DNA of 34,616 nt from Candidatus Omnitrophota bacterium (GTDB taxonomy: Bacteria > Omnitrophota > Gorgyraeia > JAFGHF01). Location of the stretch: positions 956,064-990,679 of the forward strand of contig CP070837.1 in the NCBI GenBank assembly GCA_020341815.1, in the 5' to 3' direction. A program made the translations under genes and the position numbers. Below are positions 4,949-32,101 of the stretch, piece after piece (the first letter of the stretch is position 1; every line of letters begins with the position of its first letter). Below the pieces are notes generated by a model. That model did no database searches and was not told where the DNA came from. It saw nothing but the letters and a program-made list of their open reading frames with translations.

Positions 4949-5751
4949 CTTAAGGGCTTAACTATAGGATCGGCAAAACGCATATCTATGTATTTCGCCA
5001 CTGTCTCTGTTGTCTTAAGCTCAGCTAAAACCCCGCTTAAAAGCGCAACCTTTTTGCTGAAATCGGCTTGAGGCATTTTAATTTCGATTTTATCTTCCAG
5101 ACGCAATATTATATCCGCATATCCCCTGACGTCGATCTGCGATATATTATATTCGGGATAAATCTGCACCTCCTTGAGCTCCTTAAGCAGTTTGAGTGCC
5201 CTCTCCAGCTTGAATGAATCTATTTCGGTATAAAGCTCCAGTTTCTGGGGATACACGCCGATTATTTTTGGCAAATCCCTGTGTATGGATTTGAAAGGCA
5301 GAACAAACCCTTGCTCATCCACTAAATAAAAATCTTTCTGGCCTCTAACTGCGGCCACAGGCTCCCTCACCTCTACCGCAATCAAAAGCCTATTGGGAAA
5401 CTGCTTGCGAATAGAGATATCTGCCAGCTGGGGGTAGCTATTTCGGATATCCCGCAGGGCGCCTTGCATATCAAAACTAAATAAGCTAAGCTCGTCCCTC
5501 GCCTCCAAGCGAAAGAACTCCTGCCCATCGGAAAGAGTCTTTCCGTTTTGATCCACTACAAGAATCTCATTAATCTTTAAATAAGGGGACTCTCGTAATA
5601 CCGAACGCAACCCAAAAGACACTGCAGCTAGCAGTCCGGCAAAGAGTAGCGTAAAAAGGAACCCCTTGGGGCTTTTTCTTCTCTCTTCAAAACCCCTGAA
5701 GAAATCTCTTCTTGCCCTTCTTCTCTTTATTAATCGTTTGTAATCGGGCAT
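4945..5751 (-). CDS. ftsQ: Cell division protein FtsQ (POTRA domain)
   Basis: Single-pass inner-membrane divisome protein that links early and late division proteins. The 268 residues show a very basic cytoplasmic tail (KRLIKRRRARRDFFRGF), one membrane segment at about 30-48 (FLFTLLFAGLLAAVSFGL), and an extracytoplasmic POTRA/FtsQ region. The latter includes SYPQLADISIRKQFPNRL and VREPVAAV, the usual POTRA-to-beta transition. Sequence is weakly conserved in this family, so the call also relies on topology and position between ddl and ftsA. It overlaps ddl by 22 bases and ftsA by 4. Confidence 0.85.
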   Translation of the reverse strand: MPDYKRLIKRRRARRDFFRGFEERRKSPKGFLFTLLFAGLLAAVSFGLRSVLRESPYLKINEILVVDQNGKTLSDGQEFFRLEARDELSLFSFDMQGALRDIRNSYPQLADISIRKQFPNRLLIAVEVREPVAAVRGQKDFYLVDEQGFVLPFKSIHRDLPKIIGVYPQKLELYTEIDSFKLERALKLLKELKEVQIYPEYNISQIDVRGYADIILRLEDKIEIKMPQADFSKKVALLSGVLAELKTTETVAKYIDMRFADPIVKPLR

Positions 5752-6677
5752 CTCTCTCTATCCTCTATGATAGTTGATTGGATTATTTTAAGGCAAAGCT
5801 CTCTAAAGCTTATCCCTCCAGCTAAAGCGGCCATAGGCAAGAGACTGCTTGAGGTAAATCCGGGGATAGTGTTGACTTCTAAAACAAAGGGCCTCTCCCC
5901 TTCCAAAATCATATCTATGCGCGAAAACGTGCGGCAGCCTAAGGCCTGATGAGCCAGAAGAGCTGTTTTTTGCGCCTCTTTATAACAACCCTGAGGCAAC
6001 TTCGCCGGGACTATATAGCTACTGGCACCTTTTGTGTATTTTGCCTGAAAATCAAAAAATTTCATCTTCGGCACTATTTCTACAACGGGCAAGGCCTTAT
6101 CTTCCAATATCCCCACGGTGATTTCCCTGCCCTTGATATATCTCTCAACTATAACCACATCATCGTAATTAAAGGCCTCATCCAGCGCCCCCTCCAAATC
6201 AGGGGCCTTATCCACAAAGGTTATACCAATGCTTGAGCCCTGACTGGATGGCTTAACTACCACGGGGAATTGCAGATTTAATTCTTTTAAATGCTTTTTC
6301 CAGGAAGCGCGCTCTAAAATATTATGTTCAGGAGCAGCAATATTATGCTGTTTAAAGATTCTCTTGGAAGCAACTTTATCCAGGCAAAGCCGGCTGGCGG
6401 TAGCCCTTGAGCCCGTATAGGGAATATCCAAAGACTCTAGCTGCGCCTGTATCGTTCCGTCTTCGCCAAGCTTTCCGTGAAGAGCAATGAATGCGCAGGA
6501 AATCTCCGCCTGTTTTATTTCTTCCAGCGAATTATTATTGCGAATGTCTAAGGCTATAACATCCAGGCCCGCTCCTTTTAGCGCCTGATAAACGGCCTCA
6601 CCCGACTTAAGCGAAACCTCACGCTCACTCGATGGTCCACCCATTAACACGCCTATACGGCCAAACTTACTTCTCAT
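5730..6677 (-). CDS. ddl: D-alanine--D-alanine ligase
   Basis: ATP-grasp enzyme that joins two D-alanines for the peptidoglycan stem peptide, in the cytoplasm. Length 315 is normal. Motifs in order: GGPSSEREVSLKSG (N-terminal D-Ala site), ALHGKLGEDGTIQ, IPYTGS, VVKPSSQGSSIGI (ATP grasp), then EVNTIPGFTSSS near the end. The product feeds MurF in the same cluster. A GAGGAAG ribosome binding site precedes the ATG. Normally ddl would directly follow murB; here a RAYT transposase unit separates them, so expression depends on read-through across that insert or on a promoter inside it. Confidence 0.95.
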   Translation of the reverse strand: MRSKFGRIGVLMGGPSSEREVSLKSGEAVYQALKGAGLDVIALDIRNNNSLEEIKQAEISCAFIALHGKLGEDGTIQAQLESLDIPYTGSRATASRLCLDKVASKRIFKQHNIAAPEHNILERASWKKHLKELNLQFPVVVKPSSQGSSIGITFVDKAPDLEGALDEAFNYDDVVIVERYIKGREITVGILEDKALPVVEIVPKMKFFDFQAKYTKGASSYIVPAKLPQGCYKEAQKTALLAHQALGCRTFSRIDMILEGERPFVLEVNTIPGFTSSSLLPMAALAGGISFRELCLKIIQSTIIEDRERCPITND

Positions 6678-6695
6678 TTTTCTTCCTCAAACACC

Positions 6696-6718
6696 ACTTA
6701 CACCTACGAGGTGTAAGT
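6696..6718. repeat. REP-like palindrome, ddl side of RAYT
   Basis: Perfect 10-bp stem ACTTACACCT / AGGTGTAAGT with loop ACG. It is followed by GTAG (6717-6720, overlapping the stem), a tetranucleotide known beside REP hairpins of RAYT systems. It lies 11 bases downstream of the transposase stop and could also act as an RNA hairpin, but there is no T-run behind it. Confidence 0.7.
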
Positions 6719-6729
6719 AGGCCGGTTAT

Positions 6730-7389
6730 TTATTCCAAAAACAACTTCTTAACTCTTGCTAACTCCCGCTGATAATCAATCTGAATATTTACAAATTCTT
6801 TATAATTTTGAGAGTTGATTTCCAATACTTTGGAATAATTACATATTTTTTCTCTATCTTCTTGTAGGAATTCTTTATAAGAAGAAAATTTCCAGTCTTG
6901 AGGCTTGTCCACCAAATAAGCAGTTACGGGATTTAAATGGATATATCTGGTTAAATGAAGTAATTGCTCATCGGTTTCCACCAAAATACGTTGGAATCTA
7001 CTCTCCCACAGAGGCCCCTTTCTTTTGGTCTTAACATTGAAATAGCGAGTGTAGCTGTTAAGGATATTGCTCATAAAAACAGATATGCCATTTTCATTTA
7101 ATTGCTCCAAGATTAAATGAAAATGTGTAGGCATAAAACAATAAGCAATTATATCTACTAAGCTTCTTTTTGAAATAAGATGTCTTTGAAAAAAATCTTT
7201 TTTGTTTTTTATTTCCGTAAAAGTAGAAAATTTTAATGGAGGGTTTTCCAGCTTATAATATTTAAGTAAGTTTTTCATCCTTTCATATTCTGAATCTTTC
7301 CTGAATATTTCAAAGCCTGCGATGCTCTTAGAAAAGATATGATAAATTTCTCCTTTTCCCAAAGAGATTTTATTACTATTAGCTACCAT
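6730..7389 (-). CDS. REP-associated tyrosine transposase (Y1_Tnp family)
   Basis: Single-strand DNA transposase of the IS200-related RAYT group, 219 residues. The metal-binding HUH-type motif is present as MPTHFHLIL (H89, H91). Downstream are GPLWESRFQ and RYIHLNP (149-155), both conserved in RAYTs; Y149 or a nearby tyrosine of this helix is the likely nucleophile. Family members act on hairpin repeats with a guide tetranucleotide, and the gene here is flanked by two inverted palindromes that fit such substrates. The start is an ATG behind AAGGA. Codon use and composition are AT-rich compared with murB and ddl, which suggests horizontal arrival. The reading frame is intact, so it may be active. 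Confidence 0.9.
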   Translation of the reverse strand: MVANSNKISLGKGEIYHIFSKSIAGFEIFRKDSEYERMKNLLKYYKLENPPLKFSTFTEIKNKKDFFQRHLISKRSLVDIIAYCFMPTHFHLILEQLNENGISVFMSNILNSYTRYFNVKTKRKGPLWESRFQRILVETDEQLLHLTRYIHLNPVTAYLVDKPQDWKFSSYKEFLQEDREKICNYSKVLEINSQNYKEFVNIQIDYQRELARVKKLFLE

Positions 7390-7413
7390 TATAATTCCTT
7401 ATACCTACCTTAT

Positions 7414-7436
7414 ACTTACACCTCGTAGGTGTAAGT
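7414..7436. repeat. REP-like palindrome, murB side of RAYT
   Basis: Perfect 10-bp stem ACTTACACCT / AGGTGTAAGT with loop CGT: the inverted counterpart of the palindrome at 6696-6718. It sits 4 bases past the murB stop and 24 bases before the RAYT start. The stem can be extended by a further CTTA/TAAG with a 2-base bulge. Confidence 0.7.
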
Positions 7437-7440
7437 AAGA

Positions 7441-8331
7441 TTATATAATCCTGATTTCCGGCTCAAGAAGCACGCCGAATTTCTTCTGCACCTTTCTTTG
7501 AGCCAAATCCATCAAATAAAAGATATCGGAAGATGCCGCATTGGCGCGATTAATAATGAAGTTTGCGTGTTTTTTAGATATCTCGGCCTCGCCTCTTTCT
7601 CTACCCTTCAATCCGCAGGCCTCAATCATTTCTCCTGCAGTCAAGCGGTGAGTGGGATTTTTAAAGATGCAGCCGGCATTTTTTCTATTCAAGTGCTGCT
7701 TCCTTCTCTTCTCTTTTAAGACGGCGGTAATATTTTCCCTAATTTCCTCAGGACTTTTTTCCTTCAGGGCGAACTCTGCCCCCAGCACAATATATTTATC
7801 TAAATTGGATTGGCGGTAGCCGAACTTAACCTGAGCTTTTTTCAAGAGATGTGTCTTACCGTTTCTATCCATCACGGTTACGCCTCTTACCAGATTGCCG
7901 ATGGTTTTCTTGCCTCTTCCGGCATTCATTATTAACGCTCCTCCCACACTGGCCGGAATGCCTGCCAAGGCCTCCCATCCTGCCCATCCCTTCTTCTGGG
8001 CCTGTCTAATCAATTTGGCTAAAGGAAGGCCTGCGCCACAGAAAATGCGATTTTTCTCAACCCTTATTCCGCTGAAGCAAGGGGCACTTAAAGAAATTAT
8101 CATACCCTTAAAGCCCTTATCGCTTACAAGGATATTGCTGCCTCTGCCAATTACAAAGTAGGATATTTTTCTTCTTCTGCAGTTGCAGACCAATTCTTTT
8201 AATTCTGAATAATCTTGAGGTTCGGCCCAGGCATCTGCCGGACCGCCTATCCTTAAGGTCGTATGGATATTCAGCGGCTCCTTAAGGCGCACCTCAGCCT
8301 TTAATTCTTTCAACCAATGCATCGGCAACAC
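7441..8331 (-). CDS. murB: UDP-N-acetylenolpyruvoylglucosamine reductase
   Basis: FAD enzyme that reduces UDP-GlcNAc-enolpyruvate to UDP-MurNAc, the second committed step of peptidoglycan synthesis. The 296-residue protein shows the FAD-binding segments RIGGPADAW, VIGRGSNILVSDKGF and LAGIPASVGGALIMNAG. Late motifs are FGYRQSNL and NAGCIFKNP, and it ends in LEPEIRII. Two in-frame ATGs lie 9 bases apart (8329-8331 and 8320-8322); the longer is given. It overlaps murC by 38 bases, so it is translated as part of the cluster. It ends just before the RAYT insert. Confidence 0.95.
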   Translation of the reverse strand: MLPMHWLKELKAEVRLKEPLNIHTTLRIGGPADAWAEPQDYSELKELVCNCRRRKISYFVIGRGSNILVSDKGFKGMIISLSAPCFSGIRVEKNRIFCGAGLPLAKLIRQAQKKGWAGWEALAGIPASVGGALIMNAGRGKKTIGNLVRGVTVMDRNGKTHLLKKAQVKFGYRQSNLDKYIVLGAEFALKEKSPEEIRENITAVLKEKRRKQHLNRKNAGCIFKNPTHRLTAGEMIEACGLKGRERGEAEISKKHANFIINRANAASSDIFYLMDLAQRKVQKKFGVLLEPEIRII

Positions 8332-32022: not shown

Positions 32023-32101
32023 TGGTCGGGACGGGCGGATTCGAACCGCCGACCTCTTGCTCCCGAAGCAAGCGCGCTAAACCAAACTGCGCTACGTCCC
32101 G
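32023..32101 (-). tRNA. tRNA-Pro (CGG anticodon), CCA encoded
   Basis: Full cloverleaf on the minus strand: acceptor CGGGACG/CGTCCCG (7 perfect pairs), D stem GCGC/GCGC, anticodon stem CTTGC/GCAAG with loop TTCGGGA giving anticodon CGG, variable loop AGGTC, T stem GGCGG/CCGCC with TTCGAAT loop, discriminator A and an encoded CCA. The C1-G72 pair is typical of bacterial tRNA-Pro. It reads codon CCG. Placed between DUF72 and the toxin-like gene; tRNA genes are frequent insertion sites for accessory genes. Confidence 0.97.

Follow-up and report, generated by a model that had tools for sequence, protein, structure and literature searches.

A RAYT gene between two hairpins at the murB-ddl junction of an Omnitrophota genome: a probable REPtron-like mobile unit

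Between murB and ddl of an Omnitrophota bacterium lies an insert that is best read as a REPtron-like mobile unit, that is, a RAYT gene flanked on each side by its cognate hairpin; we put the probability of this reading at about 0.7. REP hairpins are very numerous in many bacterial genomes, and how the hairpins and their enzymes spread is an unsettled question. The window, by which we mean the whole stretch of 34,616 nt that was analysed (G000:C1:956064-990679 of a 1.553-Mb one-contig genome), contains the following features at the site of the insert.

7441..8331, minus strand: murB, whose stop codon is 4 nt from the 5' palindrome
7414..7436, no strand assigned: palindrome on the 5' side of the RAYT gene, plus strand ACTTACACCT-CGT-AGGTGTAAGT
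7407..7409, plus strand: ACC foot on the inner side of the 5' palindrome (read from the sequence; family-wide foot test)
6730..7389, minus strand: RAYT, a REP-associated tyrosine transposase-like HuH/Y1 protein (ORF, motifs, profile match, structure model)
6724..6727, plus strand: GGTT foot on the inner side of the 3' palindrome (read from the sequence; family-wide foot test)
6696..6718, no strand assigned: palindrome on the 3' side of the RAYT gene, plus strand ACTTACACCT-ACG-AGGTGTAAGT, in opposite orientation
5730..6677, minus strand: ddl, starting 18 nt behind the 3' palindrome, with GAGGAA in between

The earlier note had placed a RAYT gene between murB and ddl with 23-bp palindromes of opposite orientation on its two sides, and this arrangement is confirmed by the open reading frame, a Y1_Tnp profile match, the exact palindrome copies and their centres, which read ACG and CGT and thus set the two in opposite orientation. 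The 23-bp palindrome is identical on each side, the inverted-repeat arms measure 24 nt with 100% complementarity, and a further ACC (6693-6695) touches the outer side of the 3' palindrome. When folded as DNA, both strands of both palindromes (four single strands) are predicted to form hairpins with energies between -9.3 and -9.8 kcal/mol (z from -4.1 to -6.8 against shuffles, none of 200 as good). Beyond the insert, murC stands behind murB, and ftsQ and ftsA come after ddl. The only tRNA gene detected in the window is a tRNA-Pro (cgg) at 32023-32101 on the minus strand.

The RAYT frame (7389..6730, minus strand) is intact, begins with ATG and encodes 219 aa. Its product scores 30.2 bits against Pfam Y1_Tnp (PF01797; cut-off 23) in a profile search and, at 66.7 bits, misses the 80-bit cut-off of NCBIfam NF047646 REP_Tyr_transpos. 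The HuH motif reads THFH (H89, H91), and the catalytic tyrosine, Y149, lies within YIHLNP; H89, H91, W128, Y149, N153 and P154 are invariant in an alignment of 55 RAYT proteins drawn from the 90 loci analysed below. The AlphaFold2 model (mean pLDDT 93.7) finds as its top structure match 4ER8, TnpA_REP, a RAYT bound to a REP hairpin (Foldseek E 1.9e-7; VIA Z 15.9, rmsd 2.9 over 156 residues), ahead of IS608 and ISDra2 chains (VIA Z 9.8-11.6); matches to the folds of Thg1 and ribosomal protein S6 (VIA Z 7 or less) were taken as a common arrangement only. The C-terminus of the model consists of two predicted helices (193-201 and 204-218); a C-terminal helix-turn-helix-like domain is one of the marks of subclass 2.1 and the TIRYTs discussed below. 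The protein thus modelled combines a HuH motif with Y---NP in a Y1 fold, the combination that marks RAYT/TnpA_REP proteins (class 2 TnpA_Y1), and by its predicted fold, with 4ER8 as top match, and its catalytic motif it is a RAYT.

The palindrome has no further copy inside the window, as had been noted, yet it recurs elsewhere in the genome, so that the outcome named in advance as refuting, a palindrome restricted to this place, did not occur. Allowing up to three mismatches, we find it at 10 places, namely the two flanks and eight others (three exact, five with 1-3 mismatches), against no match for a reversed-pattern control; the cognate hairpin is thus dispersed in the genome, as in a REPtron. 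A foot lies within 9 nt of 8 of the 10 copies (control mean 1.4). At the thiE/thiC junction the thiE frame stops on a TAG inside a solo copy, and an exact solo copy at the fusA end lies ~30 nt from a different Y1 transposase gene (L002:935-1468, minus strand; Y1_Tnp 32.1 bits). The solo copy at L008 carries complementary changes on both arms, and those at L006 and L007 are changed on one arm. A looser search returned 31 matches and its reversed control 15; the matches outside the 10 places appear to be chance hits, and one of them overlaps L009. Viral carriage was considered and set aside, the exact palindrome being found in 0 viral contigs. The genome holds one RAYT of this lineage, three other matches being 32-39% identical, and the gene consequently shows no trace of having been copied there recently. 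The solo palindromes at L006, L008, L009 and L010 (around position 1501) adjoin another repeat, AATTAAGTGAGCTGTCCC and its complement, which at L006, L008 and L009 continues to GGGGACAG, fitting the GGGGWSAS of TIR-flanked RAYT relatives.

Pairs of this kind extend across the phylum, where their spread is patchy: at E<=1e-30, RAYT relatives occur in 79 of 384 genomes, with 106 matches, of which 90 were analysed (the 15 weakest were left out, as was G329:C78, which lies at the edge of its contig, from base 5 onward). All 90 loci carry the tyrosine motif Y[IVL]H[LI]NP, and the HuH motif is THxH in 75 of the 76 loci at which a script detected it among the 90 examined. Upstream and downstream flanks match each other (score >=15) in 66 of the 86 elements with enough flank, compared with 6 of 430 mismatched pairs, the remaining 20 elements having no matching flanks at this threshold; together with the dispersed copies, this favors the proposal that the palindromes are the likely RAYT substrate. 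With a wider flank window 75 of 90 match, 37 in direct and 30 in inverted orientation with 8 undecided, so that the opposite orientation claimed for the palindromes holds in the window and fails as a rule of the family. Six elements counted among these 75 are absent from the set of 69 with palindromes: L031, L104, L116, L052 and L128 were removed by hand, their matching flanks not being simple palindromes, and L119 gave none; the mismatched-pair control applies to the 86-element test only.

The palindromes vary between lineages, with an ACC...GGT tip that is, by eye, mostly common to them. Both feet, ACC and GGT, are present at 84 of 136 palindromes vs 8 of 538 shifted controls, and neither at 14 of 136 vs 424 of 538. 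GTAG, which the earlier note had suggested looking for beside the palindrome, is found within 10 nt on the 5' side of 2/136 palindromes and the 3' side of 6/134, and its complement CTAC on the 5' side of 5/136 and the 3' side of 3/134; we therefore reject it as the tag of this family on counts that cover GTAG and CTAC, and since the feet are ACC/GGT, we do not class the family with the GTAG REPs. In the window itself, one GTAG lies near the 5' palindrome and one inside the palindrome centre. Mapped on the RAYT tree, the tip classes taken together require 31 changes against a shuffled mean of 40 (0 of 200 shuffles as low); taken singly, only CCGCA clusters (0 of 500 as low), the other four giving 100, 192, 273 and 500 of 500, and tip class was dropped as a tree-wide marker because this single class drives the clustering. 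The tip of the upstream palindrome of L087 (G047:C104) is interrupted by ~20 nt that themselves contain a palindrome, CCCGCC...GGCGGG.

Does the palindrome follow its RAYT? The ACTTNCACCT-type palindrome occurs in 16 of 384 genomes, with copies mostly in G271, G047, G000 and G052, and is present in 6 of the 11 genomes with a close RAYT (E<=1e-80) vs 10 of the 373 others (Fisher P 8e-7), or in 5/10 vs 10/373 (P 1e-5) when the genome of the window is removed. The threshold for a close RAYT was chosen after the matches had been seen, and flanking copies are counted, which builds part of the association in by construction; we therefore take it as support and not as proof. The palindrome is also present in 10 genomes that have no close RAYT, and it is missing from 5 of the 11 that do. 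Orphan palindromes do exist: G052 has eight copies and no RAYT at E<=1e-30, and G016, from the same class, has the exact window palindrome at 49661-49683 and a RAYT of its own with a different palindrome. In G142 (C3, C21, C27) and G181 (C2, C36), opposite TTCCAAACCCGCATTGGAA pairs stand 4-6 nt apart, resembling REP doublets.

Turning to the host site, MurB was detected in 59 of 59 genomes, and the murB-ddl junction was inspected in the best 29 of the 58 other genomes (G004, with a partial murB, was left out). ddl lies behind murB in 28 of these 29 loci, L060 running off its contig, and none of the 29 has a RAYT match at the junction. In G001, G002 and G003, the three same-family genomes examined, murB and ddl are adjacent without an insert, and the insert is thus not a fixed trait of the family; these empty-site relatives are 51-65% identical in MurB, and no empty site comes from a congener. 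The comparison that had been proposed with relatives lacking the insert accordingly yields three empty sites out of three, and the opposite outcome, the same gene at the same site in relatives, was seen at 0 of 29 loci. The closest relatives of the RAYT, in G047, G050 and G040, are 75-78% identical and all fall outside the class, whereas MurB identity within the family is 49-65%, and for this reason horizontal arrival of the window RAYT would be the simplest reading.

The unit is codirectional with the operon into which it is set. Within 6500-7600 we find no terminator-like site, and a terminator function was rejected accordingly; a search of the operon strand for sigma-70-like promoters in this interval likewise found none. 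The ddl ATG is still preceded by GAGGAA. Transcription that runs through the RAYT unit may plausibly be what ddl, ftsQ and ftsA rely on.

One unit is present in some congeners and absent from another at a single site. The nearest relative of the window RAYT, L145 (G047:C42), lies behind murD and ahead of trpF, and G050 has a RAYT at the same murD site, both genomes reading palindrome-RAYT-palindrome; at this site their congener G045 (C91) has no RAYT and a single chimeric palindrome, in which the left arm, ACCTTACTTCCAC, is identical to the one in G050's left palindrome and the outer right arm, GTGGGT, to the one in its right palindrome. Neither RAYT nor palindrome is found at the murD site of G052 and G042, which belong to other genera. 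The G045 site fits (i) excision between direct copies or (ii) insertion into a solo hairpin; host recombination that deleted the DNA between two direct copies is a further possible reading. The window RAYT and L145 both stand behind a mur gene (murB and murD), two cases being too few for a preference.

A second unit, L041/L087, is shared by G045 and G047 (92% identical) in different surroundings, and the homology stops at AACC on one side and at GGT on the other. Since L041 is 191 nt away from the end of its contig, and since the flanks of L087 find no counterpart in G045 and no extended one in G050, we see no empty site for this unit. For L037 (G221), a contiguous empty site exists in congeners G112 and G343, the latter with a RAYT elsewhere; the site is contiguous in only two of eight congeners, and the extra DNA is longer than the unit, by ~12 nt at the left end and ~100 nt at the right. 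L125 (G377) was dropped as a presence/absence case, with one flank matched and no empty site. Repeats of ~45-50 nt, apparently unrelated to the unit, lie at L026 880-926 and L037 2215-2266 and have many copies in G047 and in the g23 genomes, respectively. The polymorphic site of G045, G047 and G050 and the occurrence of one unit in two surroundings suggest that palindrome-RAYT-palindrome may move, or be lost, as one unit.

We posit that the hairpin, with its ACC/GGT foot, would form on single-stranded DNA, probably of the lagging strand, where the RAYT would bind it and cut beside the foot by means of its tyrosine. Strand transfer could then move either a lone hairpin, giving rise to dispersed copies, or the entire hairpin-RAYT-hairpin unit. 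Such a unit would have reached murB-ddl later than the divergence of the host lineage from the examined members of its family, its source being probably another lineage of the phylum, and once there may have seeded the eight solo copies, some of them at gene ends. In this scheme we infer the cleavage, the strand used, the origin of the solo copies from this RAYT and the role of the RAYT itself in the moving. A bolder form, which we put forward tentatively and on somewhat less than even terms, holds that this phylum-wide RAYT lineage is not domesticated and constitutes an autonomous single-strand transposon with double-footed ACC...GGT hairpins; it would move as a hairpin-RAYT-hairpin unit with the feet as its ends and insert into, or excise to, a single hairpin, making solo hairpins at once offspring and landing or exit sites.

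The strongest competitor is a domesticated RAYT, an immobile gene with a host function that mobilizes hairpins only in trans and owes its own spread to passive gene transfer and homologous recombination. A single copy of the lineage in the genome is what such a gene would leave, and the published view, as expressed in the relevant parts of Corneloup 2021 (PMC8266576) and Quentin 2018 (PMC6006769), is of RAYTs that behave much like housekeeping genes and whose mobility is undemonstrated. Set against this are a site at which congeners differ in having the unit, the finding of another unit in two contexts with homology ending at the feet, and the missing insert at murB-ddl of the three same-family genomes, and we consider domestication unlikely, if a serious contender. 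Still less probable, at perhaps one chance in ten, would be palindromes that act at the RNA or regulatory level, as a RAYT operator, an mRNA stabilizer or a site at which the dcw transcript is processed, without serving as substrates. Perfect stems would suit such a role, as would the stems themselves, where 28 of the 44 positions at which an element's two palindromes disagree are paired in both copies (57 elements compared; 10 whose cores did not align were left out; the same pattern also counts for the favored mobile unit), the reading of the unit in operon direction and at least two solo copies at gene ends (thiE/thiC and fusA); the lack of a terminator-like site in 6500-7600, a palindrome pair matched to each RAYT, the clustering of tip classes on the RAYT tree and feet that lie outside the stem all speak against it. 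An IS200/IS605 insertion sequence proper is very improbable, since its shared core fold (IS608, ISDra2) and the direct hairpins of 37 of 75 elements are outweighed by a tyrosine motif that reads YIHLNP and not Y---Q (a motif taken from the sections used of PMC6006769), by the absence of a near-identical copy in the genome and by TnpA_REP as top structure match at Z 15.9 over 156 residues.

The REPtron-like unit that we favor is of a known kind. In the accounts drawn on here, Nunvar 2010 (PMC2817692) places RAYTs always between two inverted REPs with a GT(A/G)G head and describes RAYT-REP coevolution, Di Nocera 2013 (PMC3733652) distinguishes GTAG and CGTC tags and TIR-flanked relatives, and the passages of Quentin 2018 (PMC6006769) and Corneloup 2021 (PMC8266576) on the matter report no evidence for mobility of RAYT genes. 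The unit shares with the gammaproteobacterial RAYT/TnpA_REP REPtrons, as characterized there (PMC2817692, PMC8266576), a HuH/Y1 protein with Y---NP, a gene between two hairpins, dispersed hairpins matched to their RAYT and one gene copy of a lineage per genome; it differs in having no GT[AG]G head, in ACC/GGT feet that often stand on both sides, in hairpins that are direct or inverted and in the evidence of a unit coming and going at a site. Its copy number is low (10 places) and, with 1 to 427 perfect copies in Table 1 of Nunvar 2010, makes no clear difference from REPtrons. TnpA_Y1 subclass 2.1 and the TIRYTs (PMC6006769, PMC3733652) have Y[IV]HLNP and W[EQ] motifs in common with the window protein (219 aa vs a median of 238), but their HuH motif, as given in those sources, is NHVH or NH[YF]H where the window has THFH and its family mostly THxH. 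Subclass 2.1 is reported in PMC6006769, as far as its description goes, without REP-like sequences, unlike the hairpin-flanked window RAYT, and the majority of TIRYT TIRs, most TIRYTs falling in this subclass, are described as carrying GGGGWSAS, whereas GGGG is absent, by eye and in the window only, beside the unit. The double-foot REPs of subclass 2.4 (Quentin 2018, PMC6006769) resemble the present hairpins in having a foot at one hairpin end and its reverse complement at the other, but in the form given there they read GT[AG]G...C[TC]AC with YIxNNP, as opposed to ACC...GGT with YIHLNP. The GT[AG]G at the hairpin foot by which Di Nocera 2013 (PMC3733652) delimits the GTAG REP superfamily is not the pattern here on GTAG and CTAC counts. 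From IS200/IS605 (IS608, ISDra2), with which it has the core fold, HuH motif and terminal hairpins in common, the unit departs in its tyrosine motif and in the absence of near-identical genome copies.

We found no paper on such elements in Omnitrophota in the open-licence literature. Foot, free orientation and site polymorphism set the unit apart from published RAYTs, and its mobility we infer. Many diverged RAYT-hairpin pairs, together with sites that are occupied in one species and empty or reduced to a single hairpin in a congener, make the question of RAYT mobility testable, and 69 RAYTs with their own hairpins form a natural data set on hairpin recognition by these enzymes.
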